Part shown: positions 19,396 through 60,000 of the stretch, in pieces
Layout of the letters: the number at the start of each line of letters is the position of its first letter
How positions within the stretch are numbered: position 1 is the stretch's first letter
Assembly: GCF_026151205.1 (NCBI RefSeq)
Contig: NC_087082.1
Location: forward strand, 3,254,001 to 3,318,000
Length of the DNA stretch: 64,000 nt
Reading direction: 5' to 3'
From: Bolinopsis microptera
Lineage: Eukaryota > Ctenophora > Tentaculata > Lobata > Bolinopsidae
Position numbers and translations under genes: made by a program
The notes under the pieces: model-generated
The model's database searches: none
What the model was told of the DNA's origin: nothing
Seen by the model: only the letters and a program-made list of their open reading frames with translations

Positions 19396-19542
19396 CGAGT
19401 TTAAAATATCTGATTCGAAAGCGTTAATTTACAACAACAACAAAAGGTCCTATTGAAAAGGGTGTAAACGGTAGAACGGTTAAGCCACTTTGTCACCGAT
19501 AGCGGATAAGATTTCAAAGCTGCCCAAGCTCAACTTCCAGAA

Positions 19543-19851
19543 ATGGAGGGAGCATCTCACATCCTTAACATCTTGACATGTAAATCCTCACAGAGTAACA
19601 GCAGCTTGACATCCTCACAGAGTAACAGCAGCTTGACATCCTCACAGAGTAACAGCAGCTTGACATCCTCACAGAGTAACAGCAGCTTGACATCCTCACA
19701 GAGTAACAGCAGCTTGACATCCTCACAAAGTAACAGCAGCTTGACATCCTCACAGGGTAACAACATCTTGACATCCTCACAGAGTAACAGCAGCTTGACA
19801 TCCTCACAGAGTAACAGCAGCTTGCGCTTGTCACTACATGGATCTCCTTGA
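19543..19851 (+). CDS. Serine/glutamine-rich repeat ORF
   Basis: An ATG at 19543 starts MEGASHILNILTCK and runs through nine copies of SSQSNSSLT to a TGA. The repeat unit is 27 bp, so it keeps frame. One unit is altered (SSQGNNILT). Such low-complexity ORFs can be true disordered proteins or chance translations of a minisatellite; with no homologue known and all frames partly open, I rate it low. Confidence 0.28.
   Translation: MEGASHILNILTCKSSQSNSSLTSSQSNSSLTSSQSNSSLTSSQSNSSLTSSQSNSSLTSSQSNSSLTSSQGNNILTSSQSNSSLTSSQSNSSLRLSLHGSP
19587..19828 (+). repeat. 27 bp minisatellite, about nine copies
   Basis: The unit TCCTCACAGAGTAACAGCAG plus CTTGACA is repeated head to tail with almost no divergence except one unit near 19755, so recent expansion is likely. 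Because 27 is a multiple of three, both strands show repetitive ORFs. Confidence 0.95.
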
Positions 19852-20299
19852 GGAGGACCTAAGCATTTTACCGAGTTATTATAGAGTGTTCCCGTGCACC
19901 ATGGAGAAAGACTAGACAGAGTCTAAACGGATGTTAGAGTTGAAGCATTCGAGTGTGCACACGCCACGTTATTACGCGAATCATTACCGGGGAAGCTAAA
20001 CAAGGATGATGAGCAGGAACGGTAACTAAACAGACGGTAACTAAGCTTCTGTACAAATTATTGATTATATTGATCAGACTTCCACTGAAAATCATCGTCA
20101 GGCTCTTTCTGACCGAGAACTCTTCTGGATTAACCTGAAAGAACACGCTAATACGAAGAAATCTGACATTACTGTCGGTTTGTTTTGTGCTTGTTCTAAT
20201 GATGTCTTTCTATTCAGATTGAGGAGAAACATCCTGCAAACGTCTCTGCAAAGAGATTTTGCTTAAAATCCATAATCATGAAAATAGGAGCTCCGTGTT

Positions 20300-20480
20300 T
20301 TAACATATTGTTAATACAAGAGACACCGTACCCATTAAACGATTTTATGATTTATAATAATAAGTTAAATTATATAGTTAAAATTATTGAACATCATTAT
20401 TGAATATCACTATTCCATTAAGTTTAATATTTTAAAGTTTTGACTAACCAGACCCTACTTCAGCTATAATTCTGCCGAGC
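20300..20480 (+). repeat. Detached copy of the 715 bp unit spacer
   Basis: The stretch from TTTAACATATTGTTAATACA to CTGCCGAGCGTGGAAG repeats the spacer of the 16.6-18.9 kb array, with an altered middle (TTTTGACTAACCAGACCCTA). It forms the left flank of the 156 bp array. The variant middle is shared with 21.3 and 22.6 kb. Confidence 0.65.
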
Positions 20481-40500: not shown

Positions 40501-43500
40501 CCCAAACCATCATAAAAACCAAGTTTCGACCTCTCAAACCACTCAGGCCACTCCCAGGAGCCACGCCCAATCCAAAATTCTAAAATTGCTGAAATCCAGC
40601 TAAAATCCAGACTGAGAATCTTTACCCCCGTATGCGATTTATGTTCCGGGGTAGGTGGGACATGTTTTAGTTTAAAAATGGGTACTACCTATCCCAAACC
40701 ATCATAAAAACCAAGTTTCGACCTCTCAAACCACTCAGGCCGCTCCCAGGGGCCACGCCCATCCCAAAATTGCTGAAATCCAGCTAAAATCCAGACTGAG
40801 AATCTTTACCCCCGTATGCGATTTATGTTCCAGGGTAGGTGGCCCATGTTCTAGTATAAAAATGGGTACTGCCTATCCCAAACCATCATAAAAACCAGGT
40901 TTCGACCTCTCAACCCACTCAGGCCGCTCCCAGGGGCCACGCCCATCCCAAAATTGATGAAATCCAGCTAAAATCCAGACTGAGAATCTTTACCCCCGTA
41001 TGCGATTTATGTTCCGGGGTAGGTGGCCCATGTTCTAGTATAAAAATGGGTTCTACCTATCACAAACCATCATAAAAACCAAGTTTCGACCTCTCAAACC
41101 ACTCAGGCCGCTCCCAGGGGCCACGCCAATCCCAAAATTGCTGAAATCCAGCTAAAATACAGACTGAGAATCTTTACCCCCGTATGCGATTTATGTTCCG
41201 GGGTAGGTGGCCCATGTTCTAGTATAAAAATGGGTACTGCCTATCCCAAACCATCATAAAAACCAAGTTTCGACCTCTCAACCCACTCAGGCCGCTCCCA
41301 GGGGCCACGCCCATCCCAAAATTGCTGAAATCCAGCTAAAATCCAGACTGAGAATCTTGACCCCCGTATGCGATTTATGTTCCAGGGTAGGTGGCCCATG
41401 TTCTAGTATAAAAATGGGTACTGCCTATCCCAAACCATCATAAAAATCAAGTTTCGACCTCTCAAACCACTCAGGCCGCTCCCAGGGGCCACGCCCATCC
41501 CAAAATTGCTGAAATCCAGCAAAAATCCAGACTGAGAATCTTTACCCCCGTATGCGATTTATGTTCCGGGGTAGGTGGCCCATGTTCTAGTATAAAAATG
41601 GGTACTACCTATCCCAAACCATCATAAAAACCAAGTTTCGACCTCTCAAACCACTCAGGCCGCTCCCAGGGGCCACGCCCATCACAAAATTGCTGAAATC
41701 CAGCTAAAATACAGACTGAGAATCTTTACCCCCGTATGCGATTTATGTTCCGGGGTAGGTGGCCCATGTTCTAGTATAAAAATGGGTACTACCTATCCCA
41801 AACCATCATAAAAACCAAGTTTCGACCTCTCAAACCACTCAGGCCGCTCCCAGAGGCCACGTTCATCCCAAAATTGCTGAAATCCAGCTAAAATCCAGAC
41901 TGAGAATCTTTACCCCCGTATGCGATTTATGTTCCGGGGAAGGTGGCCCATGTTCTAGTATAAAATGGGTACTGCCTATCCCAAACCATCATAAAAACCA
42001 AGGTTCGACCTCTCAACCCACTCAGGCCGCTCCCAGGGGCCACGCCCATCCCAAAATTGCTGAAATCCAGCTAAAATCCAGACTGAGAATCTTTACCCCC
42101 GTATGCGATTTATGTTCAGGGGTAGGTGGCCCATGTTTTAGTATAAAAATGGGTACTACCTATCCCAAACCATCATAAAAACCAAGTTTCGACCTCTCAA
42201 ACCCCTCAGGCCACACCCAGGAGCCACGCCCATCCCAAAATTGCTGAAATCCAGCTAAAATCAAGACTGAGAATCTTGACCCCCGTATGCGATTTATGTT
42301 CCGGGGTAGGTGGCCCATGTTCTAGTATAAAAATGGGTACTACCTATCCCAAACCATCATAAAAACCAAGTTTCGACCTCTCAAACCACTCAGGCCGCTC
42401 CCAGGGCCAGGGGCCACGCCCATCACAAAATTGCTGAAATCCAGCTAAAATACAGACTGAGAATCTTTACCCCCGTATGCGATTTATGTTCCGGGGTAGG
42501 TGGCCCATGTTCTAGTATAAAAATGGGTACTACCTATCCCAAACCATCATAAAAACCAAGTTTCGACCTCTCAAACCACTCAGGCCGCTCCCAGAGGCCA
42601 CGTTCATCCCAAAATTGCTGAAATCCAGCTAAAATCCAGACTGAGAATCTTTACCCCCGTATGCGATTTATGTTCCGGGGTAGGTGGCCCATGTTCTAGT
42701 ATAAAAATGGGTACTGCCTATCCCAAACCATCATAAAAACCAAGGTTCGACCTCTCAACCCACTCAGGCCGCTCCCAGGGGCCACGCCCATCCCAAAATT
42801 GCTGAAATCCAGCTAAAATCCAGACTGAGAATCTTTACCCCCGTATGCGATTTATGTTCAGGGGTAGGTGGCCCATGTTTTAGTATAAAAATGGGTACTA
42901 CCTATCCCAAACCATCATAAAAACCAAGTTTCGACCTCTCAAACCCCTCAGGCCACTCCCAGGAGCCACGCCCATCCCAAAATAGCTGAAATTGAGCTCA
43001 AATCCCATACAAATTCAGACTGAGAATCTTTACCCCCGTATGCGATTTATGTTCCGGGGTAGGTGGCCCATGTTTTAGTATAAAAATGGGTACTACCTAT
43101 CCCAAACCATCATAAAAACCAAGTTTCGACCTCTCAAACCCCTCAGGCCACTCCCAGGAGCCACGCCCATCCCAAAATAGCTGAAATCGAGCTCAAATCC
43201 CATACAAATTCAGACTGAGAATCTTTACCCCCGTATGCGATTTATGTTCCGGGGTTGGTGGCCCATGTTTTAGTATAAAAATGGGTACTACCTATCCCAA
43301 ACCATCATAAAAACCAAGTTTCGACCTCTCAAACCACTCACGCCACTCCCAGGGGCCACGCCCATCCCAAAATTGCTGAAATCCAGCTAAAATCCAGACT
43401 GAGAATCTTTACCCCCGTATGCGATTTATGTTCCGGGGTAGGTGGCCCATGTTCTAGTATAAAAATGGGTACTACCTATCCCAAACCATCATAAAAACCA

Positions 43501-46500
43501 AGTTTCGACCTCTCAAACCCCTCAGGCCACTCCCAGGAGCCACGCCCATCCCAAAATAGCTGAAATCGAGCTCAAATCCCATACAAATTCAGACTGAGAA
43601 TCTTTACCCCCGTATGCGATTTATGTTCCGGGGTTGGTGGCCCATGTTTTAGTATAAAAATGGGTACTACCTATCCCAAACCATCATAAAAACCAAGTTT
43701 CGACCTCTCAAACCACTCACGCCACTCCCAGGGGCCAAGCCCATCACAAAATAGCTGAAATCATGGTCAAATCCCATACAAATTCAGACTGAGAATCTTT
43801 ACCCCCGTATGCGATTTATGTTCCGGGGTAGGTGGCCCATGTTTCAGTATAAAAATGGGTACTGCCTATCCCAAACCATCATAAAAACCAAGTTTCGACC
43901 TCTCAACCCACTCAGGCCGCTCCCAGGGGCCACGCCCATCCCAAAATTGCTGAAATCCAGCTAAAATCCAGACTGAGAATCTTTACCCCCGTATGCGATT
44001 TATGTTCCGGGGTAGGTGGCCCATGTTTTAGTATAAAAATGGGTACTACCTATCCCAAACCATCATAAAAACCAAGTTTCGACCTCTCAAACCACTCAGG
44101 CCACTCCCAGGAGCCACGCCCATCCCAAAATAGCTCAAATCCAGCTCAAATCCCATACAAATTCAGACTGAGAATCTTTACCCCCGTATGCAATTTATGT
44201 TCCGGGGTAGGTGGCCCATGTTTTAGTATAAAAATGGGTACTGCCTATCCCAAACCATATTAAAAACCAAGTTTCGACCTCTCAACCCACTCAGGCCGCT
44301 CCCAGGGGCCACGCCCATCCCAAAATTGCTGAAATCCAGCTAAAATCCAGACTGAGAATCTTTTCCACCGTATGCGATTTATGTTCCGGGGTAGGTGGCC
44401 CATGTTTCAGTATAAAAATGGGTACTGCCTATCCCAAACCATCATAAAAACCAAGTTTCGACCTCTCAACCCACTCAGGCCGCTCCCAGGGGCCACGCCC
44501 ATCCCAAAATTCCAAAATTGCTGAAATCCAGCTAAAATCCAGACTGAGAATCTTTACCCCCGTATGCGATTTATGTTCCGGGGTAGGTGGCCCATGTTTT
44601 AGTATAAAAATGGGTACTACCTATCCCAAACCATCATAAAAACCAAGTTTCGACCTCTCAAACCACTCAGGCCGCTCCCAGGGGCCACGCCCATCCCAAA
44701 ATTGCTGAAATCCAGCTAAAATCCAGACTGAGAATCTTTACCCCCGTATGCGATTTATGTTTCGGGGTAGGTGGCCCATGTTCTAGTATAAAAATGGGTA
44801 CTGCCTATCCCAAACCATCATAAAAACCAAGTTTCGACCTCTCAAACCACTCAGGCCACTCCCAGGGGCAACGCCCAACCCAAAATAGCTGAAATCCTGG
44901 TCAAATCAAGACTGAGAATCTTTACCCCCGTATGCGATTTATTTTCCGGGGTAGGTGGCCCATGTTTTAGTGTAAAAATGGGTACCTACTACCTATCCCA
45001 AACCATCATAAAAACCAATTTCCGACCTCTCAACTCACTCAGGCCACTCCCAGAGGCTACGCCTATCCCAAAATAGCTGAAATTCAGGTCAAATCAAGAA
45101 TGAGAATCTTTGCACCTGTAGGGGATTTAAGTTCCGGGGTATTCTTTTTGGTATGACTTACTATCACCACTCATTCGAGGAATATGTTAAATCAAAGAAT
45201 ATTCATGTTCATTTTTTTCGAATGAAGGTTCATTATCGCATTTTTTAAATAGTTTTGATAATCAGATCGAGCCAAATTTTATAGGATTGTATTTGGCCAT
45301 TCAAATTACGTTCGATCTGAAAAAATGAGAGTTGTAGCTTCTCAGATGTCCGAGATACGAGGCATAACGAGTTTATTCATTACGTGTGATCAGGTGATTG
45401 GATTACCTGTTCAGGTGATTAGATTGCCCCGTTAAATTGCAAGGGAACCCAATCAAGGTGTCCTATCACATAATCACCCAATCAATTTTGTTAACGAGAT
45501 ACATTCAATGCGTCATTTCAACTCCGATTGACCTCAATTTTTCAGATCAGATGCAACAATTAAATATCTACAGTAATCTGAAATAAATGGGCGTCTAGTA
45601 TGTCTGGAAAGAACAATATAGGTGATTTAATATTATATGGACGTAGGCCGTAGTCTAAATATTCAAATTTTCAAACATTGGCGACGGAATCCTCGAATGA
45701 GTATTTACAGCATGCCATCTGCAAAGTTACAGGTCCATAATATGAAACACGGTGGTGGTGTAAGACCCAACATATGTAACGTTAGTTTTGCCCCAACCCC
45801 TGTAGCTTTTCTGGGTTAGGCGTGGCCCCTGGGAGTGGCCTGAGTGGGTTGGGAGGTCGAAACTTGATTTTTATGATGGTTTGGGATAGGCAGTACCCAT
45901 TTTTATACTAAAACATGGGCCACCTACCCTGGAACATAAATCGCATACGGGGGTAAAGATTCTCAGTCTGGATTTGTATGGGATTTGACCTGGATTTGAG
46001 CTATTTTGGGATGGGCGTGGCCCCTGGGAGTGGCCCCTGGGAGTGGCCTGAGTGGATTGAGAGGTCGAAACTTGGTTTTTATGATGGTTTGGGATAGTCA
46101 GTACCCATTTTTATACTAAAACATGGGCCACCTACCCCGGAACATAAATCGCATACGGGGGTAAAGATTTTCAATCTTGATTTTACCAGGATTTCAGCTA
46201 TTTTGGGATGGGCGTGGCCCCTGGGAGTGGCCTGAGTGGTTTGCGAGGTCGAAACTTGGTTTTTATGATGGTTTGGGATAGGCAGTACCCATTTTTATAA
46301 TAAAACATGGGCCACCTACCCCGGAACATAAATCGCATACGGGGGTAAAGATTCTCAGTCTGGATTTGTATGGGATTTGACCTGGATTTCAGCTATTTTG
46401 GGATGGGCGTGGTCCCTGGGAGTGGCCTAAGTGGTTTGAGAGTTCAAAACTTGGTTTTTATGATGTTTGGGATAGGCAGTACCCATTTTTATACTAAAAC

Positions 46501-49500
46501 ATGGGCCACCTACCCCGGAACATAAATCGCATACGGGGGTAAAGATTTTCAATCTTGATTTTACCAGGATTTCAGCTATTTTGGGATGGGCGTGGCCCCT
46601 GGGAGTGGCCTGAGTGGGTTGGGAGGTCGAAACTTGATTTTTATGATGGTTTGGGATAGGCAGTACCCATTTTTATACTAGAACATGGGCCACCTACCCC
46701 GGAACATAAATCGCATACGGGGGTAAAGATTTTCAATCTTGATTTTACCAGGATTTCAGCTATTTTGGGATGGGCGTGGCCCCTGGGAGTGGCCTGAGTG
46801 GGTTGGGAGGTCGAAACTTGATTTTTATGATGGTTTGGGATAGGCAGTACCCATTTTTATACTAAAACATGGGCCACCTACCCCGGAACATAAATCGCAT
46901 ACGGGGGTAAAGATTTTCAATCTTGATTTTACCAGGATTTCAGCTATTTTGGGATGGGCGTGGCCCCTGGGAGTGGCCTGAGTGGGTTGGAGGTCGAAAC
47001 TTGATTTTTATGATGGTTTGGGATAGGCAGTACCCATTTTTATACTAAAACATGGGCCACCTACCCCGGAACATAAATCGCATACGGGGGTAAAGATTTT
47101 CAATCTTGATTTTACCAGAATTTCAGCTATTTTGGGATGGGCGTGGCCCCTGGGAGTGGCCTGAGTGGGTTGGGAGGTCGAAACTTGATTTTTATGATGG
47201 TTTGGGATAGGCAGGTACCCATTTTTATACTAAAACATGGGCCACCTACCCCGGAACATAAATCGCATACGGGGGTAAAGATTTTCAATCTTGATTTTAC
47301 CAGGATTTCAGCTATTTTGGGATGGGCGTGGCCCCTGGGAGTGGCCTGAGTGGGTTGGGAGGTCGAAACTTGATTTTTATGATGGTTTGGGATAGGCAGT
47401 ACCCATTTTTATACTAAAACATGGGCCACCTACCCCGGAACATAAATCGCATACGGGGGTAAAGATTTTCAATCTTGATTTTACCAGGATTTCAGCTATT
47501 TTGGGATGGGCGTGGCCCCTGGGAGTGGCCTGAGTGGGTTGGGAGGTCGAAACTTGATTTTTATGATGGTTTGGGATAGGCAGTACCCATTTTTATACTA
47601 AAACATGGGCCACCTACCCCGGAACATAAATCGCATACGGGGGTAAAGATTCTCAGTCTGGATTTGTATGGGATTTGACCTGGATTTCAGCTATTTTGGG
47701 ATGGGCGTGGCCCCTGGGAGTGGCCTGAGTGGTTTGCGAGGTCGAAACTTGGTTTTTATGATGGTTTGGGATAGGCAGTACCCATTTTTATACTAAAACA
47801 TGGGCCACCTACCCCGGAACATAAATCGCATACGGGGGTAAAGATTCTCAGTCTGGATTTGTATGGGATTTGACCTGGATTTCAGCTATTTTGGGATGGG
47901 CGTGGTCCCTGGGAGTGGCCTAAGTGGTTTGAGAGGTCAAAACTTGGTTTTTATGATGTTTGGGATAGGCAGTACCCATTTTTATACTAAAACATGGGCC
48001 ACCTACCCCGGAACATAAATCGCATACGGGGGTAAAGATTTTCAATCTTGATTTTACCAGGATTTCAGCTATTTTGGGATGGGCGTGGCCCTGGGAGTGG
48101 CCTGAGTGGGTTGGGAGGTCGAAACTTGATTTTTATGATGGTTTGGGATAGGCAGTACCCATTTTTATACTAAAACATGGGCCACCTACCCCGGAACATA
48201 AATCGCATACGGGGGTAAAGATTTTCAATCTTGATTTTACCAGGATTTCAGCTATTTTGGGATGGGCGTGGCCCCTGGGAGTGGCCTGAGTGGGTTGGGA
48301 GGTCGAAACTTGATTTTTATGATGGTTTGGGATAGGCAGTACCCATTTTTATACTAAAACATGGGCCACCTACCCCGGAACATAAATCGCATACGGGGGT
48401 AAAGATTTTCAATCTTGATTTTACCAGGATTTCAGCTATTTTGGGATGGGTGTGGCCCCTGGGAGTGGCCTGAGTGGGTTGGGAGGTCGAAACTTGATTT
48501 TTATGATGGTTTGGGATAGGCAGTACCCATTTTTATACTAAAACATGGGCCACCTACCCCGGAACATAAATCGCATACGGGGGTAAAGATTCTCAGTCTG
48601 GATTTGTATGGGATTTGACCTGGATTTCAGCTATTTTGGGATGGGCGTGGCCCTGGGAGTGGCCTGAGTGGTTTGCGAGGTCGAAACTTGGTTTTTATGA
48701 TGGTTTGGGATAGGCAGTACCCATTTTTATACTAAAACATGGGCCACCTACCCCGGAACATAAATCGCATACGGGGGTAAAGATTCTCAGTCTGGATTTG
48801 TATGGGATTTGACCTGGATTTCAGCTATTTTGGGATGGGCGTGGTCCCTGGGAGTGGCCTAAGTGGTTTGAGAGGTCAAAACTTGGTTTTTATGATGTTT
48901 GGGATAGGCAGTACCCATTTTTATACTAAAACATGGGCCACCTACCCCGGAACATAAATCGCATACGGGGGGTAAAGATTTTCAATCTTGATTTTACCAG
49001 GATTTCAGCTATTTTGGGATGGGCGTGGCCCCTGGGAGTGGCCTGAGTGGGTTGGGAGGTCGAAACTTGATTTTTATGATGGTTTGGGATAGGCAGTACC
49101 CATTTTTATACTAAAACATGGGCCACCTACCCCGGAACATAAATCGCATACGGGGGTAAAGATTTTCAATCTTGATTTTACCAGGATTTCAGCTATTTTG
49201 GGATGGGCGTGGCCCCTGGGAGTGGCCTGAGTGGGTTGGGAGGTCGAAACTTGATTTTTATGATGGTTTGGGATAGGCAGTACCCATTTTTATACTAAAA
49301 CATGGGCCACCTACCCCGGAACATAAATCGCATACGGGGGTAAAGATTTTCAATCTTGATTTTACCAGGATTTCAGCTATTTTGGGATGGGTGTGGCCCC
49401 TGGGAGTGGCCTGAGTGGGTTGGGAGGTCGAAACTTGATTTTTATGATGGTTTGGGATAGGCAGTACCCATTTTTATACTAAAACATGGGCCACCTACCC

Positions 49501-50887
49501 CGGAACATAAATCGCATACGGGGGTAAAGATTCTCAGTCTGGATTTGTATGGGATTTGACCTGGATTTCAGCTATTTTGGGATGGGCGTGGCCCCTGGGA
49601 GTGGCCTGAGTGGTTTGCGAGGTCGAAACTTGGTTTTTATGATGGTTTGGGATAGGCAGTACCCATTTTTATACTAAAACATGGGCCACCTACCCCGGAA
49701 CATAAATCGCATACGGGGGTAAAGATTCTCAGTCTGGATTTGTATGGGATTTGACCTGGATTTCAGCTATTTTGGGATGGGCGTGGTCCCTGGGAGTGGC
49801 CTAAGTGGTTTGAGAGGTCAAAACTTGGTTTTTATGATGTTTGGGATAGGCAGTACCCATTTTTATACTAAAACATGGGCCACCTACCCCGGAACATAAA
49901 TCGCATACGGGGGGTAAAGATTTTCAATCTTGATTTTACCAGGATTTCAGCTATTTTGGGATGGGCGTGGCCCCTGGGAGTGGCCTGAGTGGGTTGGGAG
50001 GTCGAAACTTGATTTTTATGATGGTTTGGGACAGGTACTAACTATTTAAAACCCTAAACCTGTTCCAAATACCCCGGAACACAAATCGCATACAGGGGTG
50101 AAATCGCATACAAATCGCATACACAAATCAAGGAAACGTGCTCTCACCACGTTTTCTTTGTACAAAGGCGCGAAATTACAGAGAACCGTATTTTATAGAC
50201 TGACCTGCCCGAGTCTGTACAGTTTGCATATATCTGCCTCGGTCATTGGCACGTTGGATATTTCACTTGAGTGTACTAAACCCTGAAATGGTAAGGATTA
50301 ACAATTTAACAACTTTAATCCAAATAACACTGGAGAACAAAAAATTGCATCTCCAGAACACACAATAGAAGATGTTTAAAAAAGTCGTAAACTGTTACTA
50401 AGATCATAATTGAGTAAAATAAAATCGCTCCTCTGCATACCCTGATTTTAGAGGTGAAGTTCATGATGATACCAAACTGTTTGATGGCAGCTATCCAACC
50501 AGTTACTTGTTGGTTCTTTTCAAGTGTCTCGTATCCTGTCACATCTGCCGTACTAGGAACCACAGGTTTTATTACTTCTGGTCGTAGTTTTGAGACAACG
50601 AATAACTTTTAGAAAACGAAAAATGTTAAAGTTGAAAATTTCGTTATTCAGACAAATTAAATCTCACTCTGGTTGATAAACGTCTTGTACCGATCACGGA
50701 TTAGAAATCAACATGATGATCAATAAAGAAACCTGTTTTTGACGACACTCCGTTTCAATGTTAGAGTCAGTCTGCGTTTAGAAGGGTCTACAGTCAGCAC
50801 CTTCGCTTTGACCCTCTGATTCTGTTTAAAACTTGAGAGCTGGGTTCTTGATGTTGATATCAGCCATGTGGATCTTCGGTACAAAAC
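24323..50887 (-). CDS. PDCD11: Rrp5/PDCD11 homologue: S1-repeat ribosome biogenesis factor (partial)
   Basis: Rrp5/PDCD11 is a large nucleolar protein that binds pre-rRNA through many S1 domains and is needed for both small- and large-subunit processing. Sixteen exons join in phase: 50733-50887, 50441-50552, 50205-50282, 34035-34178, 32898-33784, 32535-32641, 29774-29955, 29484-29596, 29183-29309, 28713-28809, 28368-28523, 25395-25514, 25095-25217, 24763-24897, 24521-24627, 24323-24412. They give about 910 residues and ten S1 repeats, the first partial. Family hallmarks include GFVPKIHMADI, VGDFIVGYIKDFQDYGCFIE, KTHRYLPIT and MTLSLRKSR. The order matches repeats ~5-14 of animal PDCD11. The N-terminal repeats and the C-terminal HAT half were not found. 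The gene hosts a nested opposite-strand gene, an antisense LINE and a 16 kb intron of foldback DNA. Confidence 0.88.
25807..28347 (+). mobile_element. 5'-truncated LINE (RTE/CR1-like) with 9 bp target duplication
   Basis: The insertion is bounded by TCACAGTAC at 25798-25806 and again at 28348-28356, a likely target-site duplication. The 3' end has no normal UTR: the ORF stop at 28329-28331 runs straight into (AAGTC)n, a short-repeat tail as in RTE-type elements. There is no poly(A). The element stands in the intron between the Rrp5-like exons at 28368 and 25514, antisense to the gene. The uninterrupted ORF argues for a recent insertion. Confidence 0.8.
25854..28331 (+). CDS. LINE polyprotein: truncated endonuclease plus reverse transcriptase
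   Basis: The frame is open for 826 codons and continues upstream to the insertion boundary without an ATG, so the N terminus is missing. Residues ~1-110 are the C-terminal part of an APE-type endonuclease (VIGDFNAH, QLDFILVRKKW, GTDHRLVLSK). The reverse transcriptase spans ~330-620: KAPGDDGIPPEVLK, NWRGISLTSLVAKTLNRM, QNGFREGRSTTSHILALRRI, FVDFKKAFDSLHRG, GVLQGDTLAPYLF, the catalytic FADDIALIAD, and GLKMNEGKTKF. The C-terminal part (WTMTKRLEKMVDGCYTRMLR, RRLRLAGHAHRHPE) is typical of the same retroelements. Without its endonuclease start and promoter this copy is probably immobile, though the reverse transcriptase looks intact. The clade (RTE, CR1-like or related) needs a tree. Confidence 0.93.
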   Translation: MEVIGDFNAHLSKRDENDFGWYFHERTNRNGELLRDTALECNLEITNTRFRKKRGKMWTHLSDGTLNKSQLDFILVRKKWRNSVKNTEVYSFFSTLGTDHRLVLSKIKLSLRRAKKQPKKTWYNWGALKSDEDLQKRYAVEVKNRYSALCEQTDESEVTELYGHFVDAIADTNKAILPKREKKRRDDFAGDQRVQSVRTALQQAETVYHRDPSEDSRLSVKLIKTELDQVYQDIFEEDLVAKVRRVEMAADRCKNKESWNVINEITGRKAKGATQIRGNGAEERKKNWLGHFTNLLGSIPDVENEHPRIETQFEGLNISTEPFTVDELKAAKHRIKEGKAPGDDGIPPEVLKRCDLDEIVLSFCNKALTDGIAPDQWRISNIIPVPKKGDLTNPGNWRGISLTSLVAKTLNRMVLNRIQPAIEGVLRDTQNGFREGRSTTSHILALRRILEGARQRNLPVAMVFVDFKKAFDSLHRGILMQILKAYGIPDSIVDIINLLYVNTKGKVITPDGDTELFDILAGVLQGDTLAPYLFIIALDYCMRQALSKHPEIGFTIKPYRSRRVKAEKITDTGFADDIALIADTVKEAEMLMLEVERVAATVGLKMNEGKTKFITQNIENPDTIKSLGNNTIEHVEDFTYLGSRIRDSESDIRVRKGRAWGACHTLKKLWKSNLRKSIKTRVFTALVESVLLYGSETWTMTKRLEKMVDGCYTRMLRMALNINQYRDHVSNHSLYGDLPKVSSKITQRRLRLAGHAHRHPELTLNKLILWKPSHGHTNRGRPYLTLLDNLKADTGLKSVDEIARLMEDRKLWRTVVNGSREYYPP
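28368..29955 (-). CDS. PDCD11: Rrp5-like gene, middle five exons
   Basis: Exons 29774-29955, 29484-29596, 29183-29309, 28713-28809 and 28368-28523 finish one S1 repeat (GTRLLLSF) and encode two more (VYTVTVKSVKQLQLNVQL, NGRVHITEV, GFRHSKTHRYLPIT; then VVGQQITGYVKCIDHSGFLW to NKIDLSLV). Introns are short (about 160-450 bp) with GTATTT, GTTAGT, GTATTG and GTAAGT donors. The last donor at 28367 lies only about 11 bases from the end of the inserted LINE, so the insertion narrowly missed the splice site. Confidence 0.85.
29120..29144. repeat. Hairpin of two CRE-like TGACGTCA sites
   Basis: Eleven-base arms TGACGTCATCA face each other across TAT, in a short intron of the Rrp5-like gene. TGACGTCA is the palindromic CREB/ATF site; regulatory use is inference. 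Confidence 0.5.
29956..30773. other. Rrp5-like intron sequence upstream of the nested gene
   Basis: Contains the putative promoter side of the nested Ig-like gene. A plus-strand ORF at 30069-30263 (MFWDMLYHVGEIMPRISK) is protein-like for 64 codons but has no other support. No TATA box is obvious in the 200 bases before 30774. Confidence 0.35.
30774..32059 (+). CDS. Ig-domain type I membrane protein, three exons, nested in Rrp5-like intron
   Basis: Exons 30774-31595, 31800-31904 and 32021-32059 join in phase 0 and give 321 residues. Residues 1-22 are a signal peptide (MKFALGFLEILLFTLHTLPV). Two extracellular domains follow: a degenerate one with C71 and C132, and a clear Ig fold with C177 (YTLTCKTD), W190, C250 (FTYRCNSAV) and an extra Cys pair at 205/213. 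Five N-glycosylation sequons (NLT, NAT, NIS, NGT, NHT) are seen. Exon 2 encodes one transmembrane helix (residues 279-302, GIGLGVTAGILVLGAIIA) and a KRSK stop-transfer; exon 3 adds a 12-residue tail (VMMYGKLEETDA). Without splicing the frame would stop after exon 1 as a secreted form. Such proteins act in adhesion or recognition; no specific family is recognised. The tail has no ITIM-like motif. Confidence 0.82.
32171..32200 (+). repeat. Three units of TTATCTTGTC
   Basis: A 10 bp unit repeated three times, just downstream of the Ig-like stop codon, probably in its 3' UTR. Confidence 0.7.
32535..34178 (-). CDS. PDCD11: Rrp5-like gene, three exons including the 887 bp exon
   Basis: Exon 34035-34178 ends an S1 repeat (VVHVNPEKEKLSLSLNLLEE). 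Exon 32898-33784 carries three complete repeats (GVIEGFIVQLDATKEEAFLP; VGDFIVGYIKDFQDYGCFIE to RLLVSLKHSD; then GSIVECNIESVSEKWYEV) and the start of a fourth. Exon 32535-32641 continues it with FGYVHRAHLSDQGSSYKD. The large exon is flanked by TTGCAG and a GTTTGTG donor. Frames are intact throughout, in contrast to the 50.7 kb exon. Confidence 0.88.
34295..36974. mobile_element. Foldback element 2, nested inverted repeats
   Basis: Outer arms 34295-35303 and 35988-36974 are near-identical reverse complements (outer end TACTCCAGTAGCAGGGAGGT). The ~680 bp spacer contains a second inverted repeat, 35312-35380 against 35591-35657 (TCTACCCAGCTACCACCA). Each outer arm is made of two direct repeats of about 335 bp, each with GAGCCACGCCCATATTTCAT, GTGCGTATATGGG and GTCTTAGAGACTC. 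Long inverted ends built of direct repeats are the design of Foldback/Galileo-type elements. No transposase is encoded. It lies inside the 16 kb Rrp5-like intron, only about 115 bp from the exon ending at 34178. Confidence 0.85.
36975..37206. other. CpG-rich spacer between two foldback elements
   Basis: About 230 bp rich in CG and in TTCGCGAAT-like motifs, unlike both neighbours. Short ORFs here are not convincing. It could be original intron sequence or the outer part of the larger element. Confidence 0.4.
37370..45140 (+). repeat. Satellite array, left arm, ~180 bp monomer, roughly 40 copies
   Basis: Each monomer contains, in order, CCCCCGTATGCGATTTATGT, TCCGGGGTAGGTGGCCCATG, AGTATAAAAATGGGTACTAC, CTATCCCAAACCATCATAAA, TTTCGACCTCTCAAACCACT, GGGGCCACGCCCATCCCAAA and CAGACTGAGAATCTTTA. 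Lengths vary from about 170 to 205 bp, mainly by presence of a TCCCATACAAATT segment. Marked variants (CAATCCAAAATTCTAAAATT; ACGTTCATCCC; CCAAGGTTCGACC) recur about 740 bp apart, so four-monomer higher-order units exist in part of the arm. Confidence 0.95.
45141..45784. other. Non-satellite centre between the two arms
   Basis: About 640 bp. It has a weak inverted symmetry of its own: GATCTGAAAAAATGAGAGTT near 45315 and its diverged complement near 45530-45550, and TGATCAGGTGATTGG against CACATAATCACCCAATC. The middle is therefore probably an older, more diverged foldback core. No gene was seen. Confidence 0.6.
45785..50100 (-). repeat. Satellite array, right arm, inverted, roughly 22 copies
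   Basis: The same monomer as the left arm on the opposite strand, mean length about 190 bp. Two monomer types alternate in blocks: one with TTTTCAATCTTGATTTTACC, and one with TTCTCAGTCTGGATTTGTAT. A rare variant (GGTCCCTGGGAGTGGCCTAA) occurs at about 46410, 47906, 48842 and 49789; the last three are ~940 bp apart, which points to a five-monomer higher-order unit different from that of the left arm. Confidence 0.95.
50205..50887 (-). CDS. PDCD11: Rrp5-like gene, first three visible exons; one carries a frameshift
   Basis: Exon 50733-50887 reads GFVPKIHMADINIKNPALKF, then VKAKVLTVDPSKRRLTLTLK, but the two halves are in different frames: a run of four T (GTTTTAAAC, at about 50825-50831) has one T too many. 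Exon 50441-50552 gives STADVTGYETLEKNQQVTGW, then IKQFGIIMNFTSKIR. Exon 50205-50282 gives GLVHSSEISNVPMTEADICK, then LYRLGQ, which joins perfectly to the exon 16 kb away at 34178. Since all later exons are intact, the extra T is more likely a sequencing error or very recent mutation than old decay. A further degraded S1 exon may lie at about 51075-51150. Confidence 0.8.
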
Positions 50888-51229
50888 CTGCGGTCACGTG
50901 CTCAGTTAGATCGTCGGATTAATAAAATGCTCAGATGATGTGTTATATCTTATCATATAACTCATGAGATGTGTCAAAGGCTGGTTTTGTGGAGCAGAGA
51001 ATTTAATGACAAATTCAATGATACATTAGGTTAAAAGGGCACTACGTGGGCAAATAAAAATAGAGACCTTTCAGAAAAAACCCTGATGTTTCCGAAATAA
51101 CAACCCCCGAAATCCTCAAGTGACTATATAGCCTAAAAAAATGCACCTTTTATATCGGGGACGACAGAAATGGTTTATCTAACTGACTGTCTTAAAGATA
51201 TTGACCTGGGTATTTTATTTTTAAAAATA
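50888..51229. other. Expected position of the next Rrp5-like exon; degraded
   Basis: On the minus strand about 51075-51150 reads AIxSLEDFGGCYFGNIR or, in the next frame, YIVTxGFRG, both reminiscent of the S1 start that should precede GFVPKIHM, but stops and frame changes prevent a clean exon. An acceptor-like TTTTTTTAG lies before it. Low certainty. Confidence 0.2.
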
Positions 51230-51654
51230 TAATGCCGGTGTTTATTATTCGTTTTGCGAACCCACTTGGGGGGGCTACGCTTCATTTAAAAGAAAACAAT
51301 TCTACTTTTTCAAAGAGAAAAACGAAAAAAAAACCGGCCAATACTTTTAATTTGACCAAAAACAATAACAAATTTCAGTGTAATAACTATTCCGGGGTTA
51401 AGTTTAAATTACCAATTACCGGGCCCCGAACCCATGCTCTGGCTTTTTGGGTTTTTCCAGCCTTTTAAAATTAGCTCCCACTTTCCTGTCCCTTTCTTGC
51501 AGCTTCTTTGGGGGACAAATCCCCCTGATTCAAAAGGGAAATGGATAAAAGTGTGATTAAAGTTGCGGGAATAATCAGATTGACGGTACTCATGGTGATA
51601 GCACGAGCAACGAAACACAAAACTTTTTTCGCAGAACGAAATATGCTATCTTCG
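51230..51654. other. Homopolymer-rich low-confidence sequence
   Basis: Contains an unusual density of runs (GGGGGGG, AAAAAAAAA, CCGGGCCCCG, TTTTTGGGTTTTT, GGGGG/CCCCC) unlike the rest of the window. It forms the border between the interpretable gene region and the base-skewed region. A consensus of few, noisy reads would look like this. Confidence 0.45.
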
Positions 51655-54600
51655 AGGGATTTTTAATCTACACCCCACCCAAATTTTACACCTCCCCAAA
51701 GTTTAACATCAAAATTTAAACCACCAATAAATTCCCAGATCTCCCAAATACAACATACCCAACACCACAATATCATAAAAAGATCTATAACCCCCAAATA
51801 TCTACAATCCAACTACCCCACCTTCTTGCTCCCCCCCAACCAGCCCAAACACTTATAAATACAACAAAACATCTAATAATCCCACCCTAAATATACTTAA
51901 CCCTAAAACCAAGAATACTCAACCATAACAATACCTTTTCCCCTATTCAACCAATTCTCTGTTAATGCTAAATTCTACTTAACCACACCGATCAATCACT
52001 TCTCACTTAAACATCTCAATCCAAAAAACCACTAATCTTAAAATCTAAACCCCCAATAATCACACTAATCATCCCAAACCCAAATCATACCAACCAAACC
52101 ATCCTCTAACAACCATTTATATTCACCCCATTTATTATCTATACCACAAAATTCCCCCTCATCAACAACATAACGTACTTTAAAAAACACTACAACTAAT
52201 TGCTCCCAATTTTATACCCAACTTCACACTCCCCTTTACAATCACCACATTATCCATACTAATATGTAATAATTACCCCCCTCACCTCAAATTACCAAAA
52301 AACAACCAAACCGCTTTATACTTCAACCTTATTTAACAAAATATAAAAAAATAACACTTGTACACAAATCTATTCATATACACACAAAAATTTTCACATA
52401 AAACTTTTCAATTTTCCATTATGTTTTCTTAAGTTGCTGTGAAAAAAAGCACCCCCTTTTGGCACACTTTTCCCTATTTGAGCGCGCCTTACTTACCAAT
52501 CACTACTCTTATTCTTATATTTTATATTCTGACCAACACAAAAAATATAGATATATAACCCCCTCTATAATTTCTACTACTGATAACCAAAAAAACACCA
52601 TTACCAATACCCCCCTTAAAATTCTCATATTTCCAATTCCTTTACCATATACTTTTTTTCCCCCCACCTTTTATTTTTGGCGATCGTTTTTATAACATCG
52701 TTGGTCCAATTACTAAAATTATAATCTACAATATTTAATATACATAAACTAAATACCGATCCACACGATAAAATTTTCTACCACTAGCAAATTAAATTTA
52801 TAGTAAGAAGTAAAAAAAAATTCTTACACTAACAATAATATTATAAGATACACTACTTACTTTGTGTTCTTTAAACATTATATTTCTCACCCCTCCTCTC
52901 CAACTTATTTGTGCTATAAATGGCGTACTCCCCCCCCCCCCTCCTCCTACCAAATATAAATTAGATGATAAAATATGATCATACATAAAAAACAAAAATT
53001 GTTATTATAGCAGACGTAGAACGTATTTTGCTAGTACCTTATTAGTGGTGTTGTTTTTTTTTATTATTATATATTTCATACAATATACAAACACTACTCA
53101 ATTGTACATTGCGCCACCGCCACTGTTTTTACGTCTTTTTGTTCATACTGTATGGTTTCTAATTATTATCATCAAGTCTATCCTCCTCTTTTTGTAGGAA
53201 AATTGTTTCTTAGCTATTAATTACTAATAATCATGAAATTCTAATCAATGTTTTAGCTCATAACAAAGTCAACTCTTTAAAAATTTCCATGATAGTGTAA
53301 ATTGTAAATTAGTAGTAGCACTTTTGCATTGGAATGTTTGAATGTTGCGTAGTTTGAATTAATCTTTAATTTTAAATATAAATACAGAAATAGTTGAGTA
53401 GTAAAAATTTCACAATACTTTTCACATCAAAATATTATAATTATGATATTCATTATATATATTTATTTCACACTAATATTAACAATTGAAAAAAAACAAT
53501 TATCCTAAAATAATATTCATTCATCCTTTCCAACCTCTCAAATAAATAAACCTTTTAAACTCATAATAACACACATACCAAAGATAGATAGTAGATAGAG
53601 AAATCCTACAAACCTCAAAATTCAAATTAAACCCAATTATATACCTTTTCCAAACACAAACAACTACACACAACAAAATATAGATAAAAAAAACCCACAA
53701 CAAACCTAACACCACATAACCCAACCAAAACAACCATCTACACTAACTACATCCTTCTCATAAAAACAACCTCACCAAAAATTAATATATTTATTTACTC
53801 AAAAAAAAATTACCAAAAACTCAATTCAATCAAATAATACCACATCACATATTAAAATCATTAATCTTCTATAATAAAATATTTTCAAACTCTCTAATAC
53901 CTTACACCTAATTCCACTAACCACCTCTATAAATAAATCTATAATTTTTTAATAATTAACTACACTTTATTTAAAAAATTTATCCAAATTCTTTCCCGTT
54001 CTTAAACATCAAACATTCCTTCCTATATATAAATTTTGTACAATATAAATCACCATAATATATAAAACTCCCCAAAAAATAAACTCAAAACTATCCTTAT
54101 CTCTCTCCTAAAAAACAATTACATACATACTCCTACTCTCCAAAATATAAATCACCTCCAACATCTAAAATTATTTCCCTATACAACTTCTTTTATCACC
54201 CAACTCTATACATCTTTTACACTCAATTTTTCTCTTTTAATTTCTATCATAATCATAATCTTTATCATCTAATAAAATATAAAAACAATGAAAACTTAAC
54301 TCAAACATATCTTCCATCCAATCTCAATACCAATAAAACAATTTCCTAACATAAATTAACACAAACTCCAAATACTAATTTCTTAATAAACCCTTACATT
54401 CCTCAAACTCATATCCTCCTCTAATAATCATCATACTCAACACTCCCTTCCCAACCTCAACTAAACAACTAAAACATAAAAAAACAATTATAAATCTCAT
54501 CCTAGCCCTTTAATCATAAACCTCTCACCCTTATTTTTACTTAAATCAATATAAATATATTTTCTTTTTTTCACCACTCAAATTATCTCAAAACCTATAT

Positions 54601-56088
54601 ACAGCACACTCTTAATCCCTACCAAATCCACACTATCTCACAACATATCTTCCTAATCCATCCAACCACTAACTTACTACAAAAATCCTCAATCCAACAA
54701 ACCTCAACAATACCCCCCCATCAAAAAATATAACAATATAAAAACATAAAACCTCCACATAACAAACTAATCTTCCAAAAAATCTTCCCAATCCCCTTAA
54801 TAAACCCCCCCCTAAAATATAACAACTATCATTCCTCCAAATTACACTTATCAACATATATAAACCCAAATACATGCTTCTATATTCTTTCCTCACTTCA
54901 CCATCCTTACACCACTAACTTATTCAACCAAACTAACCAAAATCATCACACACTAACATCCAATAACACACTCACAAAACCTCCCCTTCTCACATTCAAT
55001 ATACTTACCTACCCATTCCTTTTTTATCCCTACTAAACTTTATACACTACCCCAAAAATAAAACAAAAATGAGTAGGAGGACTAAACTATTGCTCTCGAA
55101 TTGATTAACACCACCACACATACCCCTCTAGCCCACACATAAAAACAAAACATCAATTCCATCAAAATTTCTCATACATTCTATCTAAATATAAATAAAA
55201 ATCAGACAATAAAATTTCTAAAATAATTAAACACACCTGTCTTATTTTATAATTCATAATCTTAAAAAATTACTAAAAATCTACACCAAAACTATAATAT
55301 CTTCATCAAACCATTTTATCAACCAAACCACTCATAAAAATCTTCTATTATCCCCAATCAATTTAAATAATATAACTTTCCCCATAATCACTATAAATTT
55401 ACCTCTAACTACAACAAAATACTTTAATCTTAAAATAATAAATAACATTCATTGAAGAGAATTAATTTAATTATTCCTCTCTTTAGAATTTAATACACTA
55501 TACTTTACTACTCTCTTATAATACCCTATATACCTTCTTTTTTTGCTTTTTGTAACCAAAACCTTCAAAATACCTATAAACCCTACCCTACCTTATTGTT
55601 TGAATATAGATTTATCAAACTCTAAATTTAATCGCGCTCAACATTAACAAATTCGGTAAATCTTATACTACTTCCTCAACAACTCCATAAACCATCTTAT
55701 ACAAGATACAAACTACCACCATAAAATTAAACAATCCAAAACCTTATACCAATATATTTTTCGCCTAACCAATTATATCTGCGCTAAATATTCCCATTCA
55801 ATTTACATTCATTACATATATTCTTCAACCTCTTCTGTATTATTGAAAACTCTTTAACCCCAACTTATTCAAAAAAAAACGAACTTCACCAAATCACAAA
55901 CCTAACCAACAGAAAACTAACAAATTTAAAAACACTAACGAATAGGACATTTTCCACAAATCAGGTTCAAATTCTTTTACATTACCAAACTTATATCTCA
56001 CCCACAAAAATACTAAACTAAAACTAATCTCTCAAAACACCTATACAAACTCAAAACAACTCATCTTACTCCCCTTTCACAAATTGCT
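51655..56088. other. 4.4 kb block almost without G on the plus strand
   Basis: The plus strand is A+C+T only for long stretches. By hand count 51661-52380 has about 14 G in 720 bases; 54605-54875 has none in 271 bases; 51991-52174 has none in 184 bases. C stays common, so the loss is of G, with A in excess of T. Short islands of ordinary composition interrupt it at about 52432-52500, 52985-53330, 55070-55110, 55450-55490 and 55540-55660. There is no periodicity by eye and no credible ORF. On the minus strand it is G+T rich. Confidence 0.85.
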
Positions 56089-56286
56089 TCTTGTCGTGAA
56101 AAAATCACTATAGCTCTATCACAAAAGTCGCTAACCTTAAGTGTGGTTGTAGAGGTGATAGATTTTTAAATACGTTGGCGTTGTGTGTCCAAAAGATTCT
56201 TTCGACGTCTGATTGAGACGTCGTATGCAACGGACTAATTGAAAGATAAAGGCTAGTGAATTTTATATTAGGCCCCAAAAATAATT

Positions 56287-56535
56287 TTGGGTAAAATTGT
56301 AAAATTAAGATGTCCAAATTGTGTCTCTGGGAGCAATTTAAATTTAGTCGAGACGGACATTTTGTTTGAACACGGAAGTGTTTATCTATTTATTTTGGAG
56401 TTAAGGTGTAGGGTTTGTGCCGTTAAGCGACGTTTGACCATGAAAGATATAGGATTTGAGAGTATAGAAGTGTTGATTACTGAGGACCAGGGTAATATGT
56501 GTTATAAAGCATATAAATACAGATTTTGCGCATGA
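56287..56535 (+). CDS. Weak ORF with two CxxC pairs
   Basis: A frame without an ATG start reads KLRCPNCVSGSNLNLVE, then FILELRCRVCAVKRRL, and ends at TGA. Two C-x2-C knuckles about 35 residues apart could form a zinc ribbon, but C-poor sequence makes TGT/TGC codons common on this strand, so it may be chance. It begins about 200 bp right of the composition switch. Confidence 0.15.
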   Translation: MGKIVKLRCPNCVSGSNLNLVETDILFEHGSVYLFILELRCRVCAVKRRLTMKDIGFESIEVLITEDQGNMCYKAYKYRFCA

Positions 56536-59500
56536 CAGGCTGAGTCTGGCAGTAAGTGTTGATTGTTACATAGCATGTACGTGTATTGCGTCGGCGGTCG
56601 AGGCGCGTATATGCTTACTGGGTGCGCTTTCACATTTCCATGTGCTTTCGGATGCAGCTCGCTTGTTTCACATCACTGCAGCGAAAGGGCTTAGCTCTGG
56701 ATAGAGCAAGGGCCGCTCAGCATGTCATTCCGCGAATTTTTTATGTTTATAAATATATAGTGGGGGAGGGTAGTTGCAGGAAGAGGGCTATGGTATAGAG
56801 CTTTGATTGAGATGTGATCTTAATGTTGCTCTGTAAAGAAGATTTAGCAAGGAATGTATGTTTGCGCTGGGTCGGAAGCTAGGAAGAGCAATTAACGTCT
56901 AGTAATTCGTTTCTAATTTGACGAAATTATTGATTTGTATTTTCGTCGTACTATTTTTTATATTTGGTTTGGAATGGAATATTTTGAAAATTGTTAATGA
57001 TTTTGATAGTAAATGTTCTCTTTGCAGCTGGGTGGCAGTGGTGCATGCCTTTCTAAGAGGGGTTGTGTTGGTTTGCGATAACATAATTTATGGCTATTAG
57101 CAAGTGTGTATCGGATTGCGTAGACACACGTTGAGGGACTTCTTTAAATGGTGTTTGGTGAACTCGTAAAATGCATTGTTCATTAGGGAGGTAGGAGTAA
57201 CTCGGCAGGTTTTTGTAGTTACTAAATACGATAATTATGGGTTGTAGAAATTTGTAGTATATTGGATTTTTGCTTAAAGAAAATTTGTAGTAGTGATGCG
57301 AGGCAGCAGTGCGGGCTGTATTTGATTTTGGAGTCTCATAAGTGAATGACGATTAGGGTAGGAGTGAATAATATTTGGGCCGGAGTGTTTGCGAATTCTA
57401 TTATTATGATTATAGTGAGGTCGCCGGTAAGACGTGATTCAAAGAAAATGGGGCAAAAACAAAAGATGTTGTTGAGCAGTAAGTATTATATTGGTGATTT
57501 CGGATATGATTATTGTAAAGCATCATCATGGTTGCAGGTTATTGTAATGTGTGACTGTGAGATTCATGTGTTATAATTCTCTTAGATTCGCGGGGAAACT
57601 TTATGCACTGTAGAGCGTTTGATAACATTAGTTAAAAATTAGTACATTCGTCTTTACGTTATGAAAACGTAAGATTTATCGGAAAAGTCGTATAACTGAT
57701 ATCATATATAGTATAAATCTAACTTTGACTATTGATGATATGAATACACCTGTTCAGTGTTAATAAGTTGAGATCGTGGGTGTTATGTGAGATTCTTCAT
57801 ACTTCTCTTCCGCGTCGCGTCATCATTTTTCGTGTTGGAGAAGTAAAATTTGGTCAAGGTATTGGTATGCGGATAGGATGCAGTTTATTACATCATTTAT
57901 ATGCAGCGAAGGGGCACTAGAAATTTCGACGCGGGTATTAGAACGACACGGTTATTTATTATTTGGATAAAATAGAAACGTTGTTTAGATTTACGAATTG
58001 TGACATACTTTTCAATAGAGAGGGGGATCAAAAATAAAATCATCATTGATATGATTATAGTTAAGATATTAAATACTAAGGTAGAAGAGAGGAGAGTAGA
58101 TGAGATGAGATGTGAGTAATCGAACTCTTTTTCCCAGACACCTACGCGAATATTTACTGAAGATTTGAAAATATACCGCTTCTGTCATAGTTTATAAAAT
58201 GTCACTTTGAAAATGGTCAAGAGAGGAAAATTAACATTTTTAATTTTTCTCAAAAGTTGGAGGGGGTGATCTTTTAAAAGTTGATAATACGAGTGTAATG
58301 ATCGATTCAGCGATAAGTTATTATTATTTCATACAAGTTTATATGATGGATCTAAAGTCTCAAGCGAAGGTTGCCAGTTTGATTTGTGATGAAATAATGT
58401 GTTAATGTATTTAATTATGAAAAATCAAGAAATAGTTAGATTAAAGGAAAATCAAAGAATCAATTGTAATATGAATGTCAATAATAGCTGCTAAACTTAA
58501 ATTCATTTTGGGTTTGGAAGATTTTCTGTACAATTTATAAATGAGAATTAATCAACAAATATTAATTTTAAAATGCAATGAAATATTTAGTCAAACACGA
58601 TATTATATATTAAAATAGAAAATAAAATTCCAGACATTTTTCAAATATCGATTTCAATGCAGATTGGGTTGGAACAACGATTAAAAAAATGAAATCATAA
58701 ATAAGCATGTAAAGACTGATATATGAAACTACTATTTATTTATATTATCGAGTTTCGCGAAAGTTAATTTAGAGTGAAGTTTTTGTGTACTATGGAATTA
58801 GTTAATTAAACACATATGAGAGATCAGGCAATAATTCGCGCAAATCGGAATTATATAATGAGTATGTTTATATATGTGCTTTAGGATGTTTTTTTATTGA
58901 TTCGGTAGTGTATTTTAGTCTTTGTATTAGCAAAATCTAATCTGATTGATGATATTTGAAAAAATGTCCGTTATGATTTTTAGTTATTTATATGTTTTAA
59001 TATTTATGTGGTTGAAAATATTTCGATTCGTTTAGTTTAATATTTGGGTTGATAATTTCGATATAGAAGTTGTGTACGAAAAGTGGCTTCCCAAAACGTA
59101 AAGAGAGGATATGAAGTTTGTGCAAGGTATTTAATCCTCATTTCATATTTAATTGATTCTTTGAGGTTTTTGTTTAATCTAATATTTTTGATTTATATAT
59201 TTAACGAATTAATTTAGACGCAGTTATTTTATTTCAAAATAAACTGATACACTTCGGTTTAGACTGTAGATCATGATATAAATATTGTTAGAAGGGAAGA
59301 TTATAATAATGTTGATCGTGTACGTCGTTAGACTCGGTATTATCAGGTTTTTACTAGATAGGGGCGTGCCGACGTTTTTTTGAGAGAAATTTGTGTGTGT
59401 GGTTGTAGTGGAGATTTGTTTCTCTATGGACATTTTTAAAGTGGTCGTTTGAATTAGGAATCTATAGGTTTGAGAGAGATGAGTGGGAAATAGTATTTCA

Positions 59501-59718
59501 ATAGGTTATTAAGTATTCGGCTTTCGAAAATTAGGAGATCTTTGGTCTGTTTTTCACAAATCTCTTTCAGATAGTCTCACGGTCTGAAAGATGATTCTTT
59601 TTTCTGTACTTTATGATATTTAATTATCTTTGATGCAGTACTGCAGTATTAATTATGATGTTTTTGTCTTATTGTCCCTGTCAATGTGTAGGAGGGTTGT
59701 AGTCAATATTTCGTAAGA

Positions 59719-59931
59719 ATGGCACAACGGTGTTGCTATTTATTAAATAGTATTAATAACGTGTCGTTGTTTAATACCGGTTTCTTAAAATTAGAGTGGC
59801 TTGTTGATATGAATGATGAAGATAGAAACCGGTATTACACATACAATATGTGGAAAAGTTGCTGGATTGCAAACAACAAAATAACGAAACAAATAGTAAA
59901 ATTAGTTACGCAGTTTCGAAAAGTTATTTAA
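59719..59931 (+). CDS. Weak 70-codon ORF with ATG
   Basis: ATG 59719 opens MAQRCCYLLNSINNVSLF, then LEWLVDMNDEDRNRYYTY and SCWIANNKITKQIVKL, ending at TAA. Its composition is more protein-like than its neighbours. No domain, splice site or polyadenylation signal supports it. Confidence 0.17.
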   Translation: MAQRCCYLLNSINNVSLFNTGFLKLEWLVDMNDEDRNRYYTYNMWKSCWIANNKITKQIVKLVTQFRKVI

Positions 59932-60000
59932 ACACTGGAAACAGTGTAGTTATATCATAATATTCCAAGTTAGTAATACTTTTGTTATAGGTTAAGCGAT

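Follow-up and report, generated by a model that had tools for sequence, protein, structure and literature searches.

In this work we analysed 64,000 nucleotides of the genome of the ctenophore Bolinopsis microptera (the window, C11:3254001-3318000, where C11 is contig NC_087082.1; the genome comprises 264.65 Mb in 232 contigs), in which a plus strand nearly devoid of G gives way abruptly, at about 56.09 kb, to one that is poor in C. This composition switch is almost certainly a sequencing and assembly artefact, a misread raw read left in the contig: the sequence does contain the switch, but the organism does not, and no real genomic feature is marked by it. We show that about 54 kb of C11 (W~51,000-104,800, W being the window coordinate, i.e. 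the C11 position minus 3,254,000, run on past 64000 along the contig) is uncorrected long-read sequence with raw-read errors, and that this insert runs one molecule forwards, folds, comes back and then goes round again, with a period near 29.04 kb. In the 'C-poor' state the bases are called in the ordinary way but much of the C is lost; in the 'G-free' state each call for this same DNA is shifted to the neighbouring base, and C is mostly uncalled. Both were recognized by comparison with a cleanly assembled region of another contig of the same genome (C1:5595178-5609865). The features of the window that enter the argument are as follows.

50139..50990, minus strand: last clean consensus, a close copy of the upper part of C11:3071721-3070152 (reverse)
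50991..51677, minus strand: noisy border, the end of the clean assembly, an indel-rich continuation of the C11:3071721-3070152 copy
51678..56090, plus strand: 'G-free arm', C1:5600619-5607162 with A read as C, C lost, G read as T and T read as A
52860..53340, plus strand: island with ordinary base calls within the shifted arm, forward on C1 at about 5602.1-5602.5k
56142..58761, plus strand: outward half of the 'C-poor arm', C1:5606910-5609804 from which 47% of C is missing
58762..58777, no strand: fold-back point, the forward C1 alignment stopping at W58761 and the reverse one starting at W58778
58778..64000, minus strand: 'C-poor arm', return half, C1 reverse strand from 5609865 down

The composition itself is largely as it had been described in the original prediction, which reported 4.4 kb almost without G, a G-free run of 271 bases at 54605-54875, and G in excess of C right of the switch. 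G is down to 3.7% in the 4400 bases that start at 51659, the lowest value for any stretch of that length in the window (the lowest is 17.1% across 200 first-order Markov simulations modelled on the clean part, W1-37000, which itself never falls below 17.5%). The run of 271 bases is present, though the longest one is 314 bases (53684-53997; maximum in the 200 simulations, 70). Right of the switch, when 56251-60000 is divided into 15 steps of 250 bases, C is at 7.6-12.8% in all steps but one (56501-56750, with 20.0%), and G is at 12.4-28.4%. Two parts of the description required amendment. The depletion of G is extreme but not uniform, as the left arm contains stretches of ordinary G content (10-12% at 53001-53500, for example), and the pattern continues past 60 kb: beyond the window lies a second and longer G-poor arm (W77851-85930) in which one run of 932 bases is without G, C is again below G after it, and a third G-poor arm begins at about W98040.

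A letter map that decodes the G-free arms

All 256 maps that turn each of the four letters into A, C, T or nothing were scored in 4 orientations on two G-free stretches that were expected from their position to be satellite. Both stretches pick the same map (A to C, C lost, G to T, T to A) in the orientation expected from the context, with scores of 190 and 184, which exceed the mean of 4 shuffled units by 164 and 160, respectively; a map and its own complement read backwards are identical twins. C1 rewritten by this cipher aligns with the arm of the window in five collinear blocks (W51678-55799 on C1:5600619-5607162, with E values from 7e-9 to 2e-167) and with the second arm in seven (W79294-85798 on C1:5598306-5607675, one block being a local duplication repeated). 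These collinear blocks account for 12 of the 15 C1-forward cipher matches, and both C1-reverse matches (W98076-98199 and W98668-98715) fall where the third shifted stretch is expected. In 54 map and orientation tests on the two arms the cipher reached 4073 bits, of which 1157 came from the window arm alone, versus 516 for the next-best map (182 being the next-best for the window arm), and 31 of the tests gave none. In the seven blocks, of the 12 in the arms, that form the emission table, and with a scoring that favours the cipher, G was called T in 94.4% of cases, T was called A in 91.0% and A was called C in 66.0%, 26.2% of A and 81.2% of C were lost, and G was kept in 0.2% and called A in 0.6%. 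The two G-free arms match each other with 65% identity over 2.7 kb. One fixed letter map fits separate G-free stretches, namely the two satellite stretches, both arms, W98060-98200 and W88350-89040; the last two exceed their controls under the shifted model only (93 versus a maximum of 46, and 209 versus 173, with 30 controls in each case). Within W98.7-101.5k the decoded parts are W98668-98715 and W98900-99500 only, and W102.44-102.95k is not decoded.

The same DNA is found in both states. C1:5606910-5607675 has 27.0% G in the first pass (W56142-56833), where the plain model scores 952 versus -144 for the shifted one, and 0.7% G in the second pass (W85186-85798), where the shifted model scores 663 versus 126 for the plain one. 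The composition switch falls at different DNA positions in the two passes and is not fixed to one. In addition, islands of ordinary calls lie inside the shifted arms: W53223-53340 matches C1:5602379-5602507 directly (E 5e-13), the 200-base chunks at W52860 and W53060 map best to places collinear with this match, and in the second arm W81930-82003 has a direct C1 match at the collinear place. As one stretch of DNA is ordinary in the first pass and G-free in the second, the bias is one of the read, not of the DNA; being plain or shifted is a property of the read at a given moment, not of a DNA strand, a promoter or an origin.

Other models of the G-free sequence were tried and rejected. Satellite with G deleted or replaced was compared with seven G-free stretches and gave a z of 2.9 at best; the full map search solved two of these, wholly or partly. 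In three-letter alignments allowing G to A or plain loss of G, lenient scoring gave reversed controls about the same score. A model allowing G to A did not beat the controls when the window G-free arm was aligned with C1 or with C11:3062001-3077000, and gave a z of -0.95 to 1.72 for four short G-free pieces against plain copies (30 controls each). C11:3062-3077k was also considered as the template of the G-free arm; within W45,000-131,000 only W50139-51689 matches it, and the cipher pointed to C1.

Fold-back circuits and error profile of the C-poor arm

The outward half of the C-poor arm (W56142-58761) follows C1 with 78% identity, 133 mismatches and 395 gap openings (300 and 253, respectively, with BLAST scoring). 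The return half runs past the end of the window, in several blocks with gaps between them, to C1:5595178 at W70073. A second circuit follows, with C1 forward at W86073-87849 and C1 reverse in several blocks at W87836-98655, and it folds at the same C1 place (W87836-87849) as the first. The arms of the circuits match one another at a spacing of 29.04 kb (W53403/W82440 and W57228/W86265). In a whole-genome search with the right arm (40 of 71 candidates scored), the matches were C1:5606919-5609804 (75%), C1:5608641-5609865 on the other strand (76%), C11 30 kb further on (69%) and the arm itself inverted (67%); the homology of the arms is 62-69% to each other and 63-83% to C1. Forward and reverse copies of the same insert in succession are what is expected of an unsplit PacBio read.

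The template of the circuits is C1:5595-5610k or a close relative. Both circuits lack C1:5596177-5598282 and about C1:5604455-5606307 (1.9-2.1 kb each), and the corrupt read continues into satellite where C1 does not. Because these two C1 stretches are missing and satellite is entered where C1 does not have it, the template is another haplotype or an unassembled paralogue; the two stretches are candidate polymorphic insertions, or a sign of a paralogue. Open frames of the C1 region resemble, by eye only, reverse transcriptases.

Six segments of the C-poor arms have 2.45-2.97 gap openings per mismatch, the indel-dominated raw profile that an unsplit read would present. In these segments true C is kept in 44.7-58.8% of cases, deleted in 33.1-46.8% and called T in 1.2-3.8%, and G is kept in 85.8-96.1%; the three return segments of the first circuit lose 33-41% of C and keep 86-96% of G. 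Deleted bases outnumber inserted ones in the arms. The ratio of gap openings to mismatches depends on the scoring scheme, and a 184-base satellite, scored in the same way as the six segments, provides an internal control: across 11 stretches of its clean arrays in the window the ratio is 0.04-0.48 and the loss of C 0-1%, and across 3 stretches inside the corrupt insert they are 1.24-1.59 and 30-39%. One noisy satellite stretch shows a spacing peak of 162 (165 and 176 according to a tandem-repeat finder), and a satellite unit of 184 bases that lost 40% of its 55 C's would be 162 long, equal to the noisy spacing.

About 250 bases at the start of the arm (56150-56403) match, among the candidates scored, dozens of places on many contigs with 71-79% identity, often in pairs or runs about 670-730 bases apart. 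They belong to a dispersed, locally tandem repeat family that is read through in the corrupt insert.

Origin of the misread sequence and rival explanations

The insert contains a trace of the platform. W74503-74538 scores 27 of 33 against the SMRTbell adapter in reverse complement and stripped of its C's, the adapter letters being presumed; none of 60 shuffles scores above 21, and the clean 50 kb gives 16-18. This C-stripped adapter sits at the centre (~74.5 kb) of a palindrome (W72059-72955/W76942-76002), so that an adapter at a turn, as expected of an unsplit read, is present at one turn. The SMRTbell adapter with at most 3 mismatches is found nowhere in the genome. A match to the plain adapter at W85.82-85.88k (24 versus at most 21 in six shuffles) is low-complexity AG-rich sequence and is not claimed.

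On the minus strand, which would be the strand of the read, the cipher takes the form C to A, A to T, T to G and G lost. If the dyes of recent PacBio chemistry rank in brightness as C>A>T>G, which is the order we assume, a drop of one step along this order gives exactly this cipher. Losses on the minus strand are 33-47% for G, 6-10% for T, 2-7% for A and 2-8% for C in the plain state, and 81% for G, 26% for T (now at the bottom), 7% for A and 5% for C in the shifted state; the gradient of loss agrees with the assumed order, as it rises towards the dim end in both states. We propose that a PacBio read would lie in reverse to the contig and that its signal would have sunk, with the dimmest base (G on the read strand) dropping out first to give the C-poor arm and the caller then slipping by a whole level to give the G-free arm. 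Because the adapter was itself read without its C's, adapter finding would have failed and the circular read would have stayed unsplit; the assembler may then have used it beside the satellite region.

Several observations weigh against this reading or against parts of it. C1 is imperfect as a template, with two stretches missing and a continuation into satellite that it does not share. The noisy border (W50139-51689) lost 8% of G and 3% of C, unlike the arms. Seven cipher matches at W100221-100950 (3 C1-forward and 4 in the control region C11:3062-3077k) lie off the expected path; they fall in AC-rich sequence (W100.2-101.0k) and look like chance. In a low-G patch of the return half (W63895-64290) neither the plain nor the shifted model exceeds its controls. 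With BLAST scoring the four longest blocks have only 0.59-0.88 gap openings per mismatch, and the emission frequencies were, as said, obtained with a scoring favourable to the cipher. No adapter is recognized at the folds W58.77k and W87.84k (C1:5609.8k), where the molecule may have had a self-closed end or contained a true palindrome. Finally, the adapter letters and the brightness order are presumed, no open paper stating the order C>A>T>G was found, and the attribution to PacBio comes from the assembled sequence, not from reads.

The elements of this artefact have precedents. Read artefacts already known include missed adapters, long segments of low quality (PMC6977585) and the fold-backs treated in the Breakinator report (PMC12870357). 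The insert shares with missed-adapter reads the palindromic passes of one insert, the adapter left at the turn and the raw error rates; it differs from them in that the adapter is disguised by C loss and in that part of the read is in a systematic cipher, not in random noise. As far as the available text of the Breakinator report goes, artefacts are treated there in reads, whereas here the fold-back is built, twice, into a chromosome-scale contig. Artificial palindromes in long reads, arising after whole-genome amplification, are also the subject of Pacasus (PMC6218980); here the period, near 29 kb, speaks for one template circled repeatedly, and amplification is unneeded. A letter shift by a whole level in an assembly is undescribed in the titles and abstract openings of the related literature surveyed, in which no search was aimed directly at it, and we claim no priority.

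Among the alternatives, the one that fares best keeps the artefact and reverses its sense: the read would lie in the orientation of the contig and its signal would have brightened by one level (G to T, T to A, A to C, C off scale). The order C>A>T>G is unchanged by reverse complementation, and the cipher alone cannot separate the two orientations. However, the unshifted state loses the C of the contig (33-47%), which fits a drop-out of G, the dimmest base, on the minus strand, whereas brightening would require selective loss of the brightest base; we therefore regard brightening as unlikely. A raw nanopore read with wrongly scaled current is quite improbable. It would accommodate the excess of deleted over inserted bases in the arms, and fold-back artefacts are reported for nanopore reads (PMC12870357). 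Against it are the SMRTbell-like adapter at the centre of the palindrome and the repeated circuits of one molecule, which are the expectation for a circular template. Moreover, nanopore signal depends on several neighbouring bases, and mis-scaling of the current should not yield a nearly context-free letter cipher.

The original prediction had also raised biological explanations, either divergent germline transcription (for example from a bidirectional piRNA-type cluster) with deamination of the exposed strand, for which a central promoter would lie at 56.09 kb, or a fixed replication origin. Transcription-associated strand asymmetry produces an excess of G+T on the non-template strand, and the geometry of the two arms, which are G+T-rich on both outward strands, is indeed of this kind. 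However, the bias in the insert takes the form of deletion and a letter shift, not of transitions, and two passes over one stretch of DNA do not show it alike. Deamination predicts G to A on the left and C to T on the right, and these amount to 0.6% and 1.2-3.8%, respectively, with 33-47% of C deleted; maps that only replace G (by A, C or T) reach at most 337 bits for both arms versus 4073 for the cipher, and 0 bits for the window arm among the rows listed. A promoter or an origin fixed in the DNA is further incompatible with a switch that falls at different DNA positions in the two passes, C1:5606910-5607675 being plain in the first and shifted in the second. We give hardly any credit to these explanations. 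Conversion of C to T on the minus strand, by editing or RIP-like mutation, had also been proposed and fails in the same way, as true G is called T in 94.4% of cases and A in 0.6%, and C is deleted. What held was the suspicion of poorly called reads in the assembly, borne out by the raw indel profile, the fold-back circuits and the decodable letter cipher. The chance that the arms are a real and old repeat family, inverted and duplicated, whose copies diverged through strand-biased mutation or RIP-like editing, is practically nil: such a family would account for arms homologous to each other (62-69%) and to C1 (63-83%), but not for 2.5-3 gap openings per mismatch versus 0.04-0.48 in the clean satellite scored alike, nor for a cipher that replaces base by base and does so, for two of the letters, with a fidelity of 94% and 91%, which corresponds to no known mutation process.

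Limits of the insert, neighbouring sequence and consequences

The homopolymer-rich sequence that precedes the G-free arm had been distrusted, rightly so, for the clean consensus ends there. W50139-51689 matches C11:3071721-3070152 with 86-100% identity in nine bins of 100 columns up to W~51,034 (in the last clean consensus 93, 86 and 93%, then 98-100% in five bins, and 93% from W50935), and from W51035 eight bins are at 65-85%, six of them with 10-12 gaps per 100 columns. At its right end the corrupt insert passes through noisy satellite (W103291-104560) and then a satellite-edge element up to about W104.8k, beyond which the ordinary composition indicates that the sequence is clean. The satellite probably caused the misassembly, because the corrupt insert starts near, and ends in, such sequence. 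Two clean arrays of the 184-base satellite lie in opposite orientation at 37997-45141 and 46025-50099; an element of ~0.9 kb lies between them, and its noisy copy at W104.4-104.8k matches many contigs with 74-82% identity.

Left of the fault, an exon-like open frame on the minus strand at 32882-33859, with an S1 RNA-binding domain (E 2.5e-17) and a sub-threshold match to the RRP5 S1 domain, marks gene-bearing sequence. An 855 aa open frame at 25764-28331 contains a reverse transcriptase domain (Pfam RVT_1, E 2e-32); 42 of its 43 listed matches (itself included; 40 of 314 candidates scored) are at 94-100%, for which reason this family was probably active recently. An array of a 13-base motif recurs at 16667, 17385, 18100 and 18812, about every 715 bases, and again at 20383, a spacing that suggests a larger tandem repeat (16667-20414). 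No Rfam match was obtained in the window at gathering thresholds.

This type of failure can escape ordinary checks, as the letters look strange yet orderly and only the letter-map test reveals ordinary DNA. We tentatively suggest that whole-level slips of amplitude-coded single-molecule reads may survive in finished assemblies as decodable ciphers and recur in other public genomes, where they may be masked as low complexity or read as extreme strand skew and where the letter-map test would find them, although we hold this to be somewhat less probable than its contrary. Screening for long runs that lack one base, followed by a test of the one-step map, would be a cheap check of assembly quality. 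For B. microptera, the consequence is that about 54 kb of this chromosome is false, and that genes, repeats, skew and small-RNA signals annotated there would be wrong.

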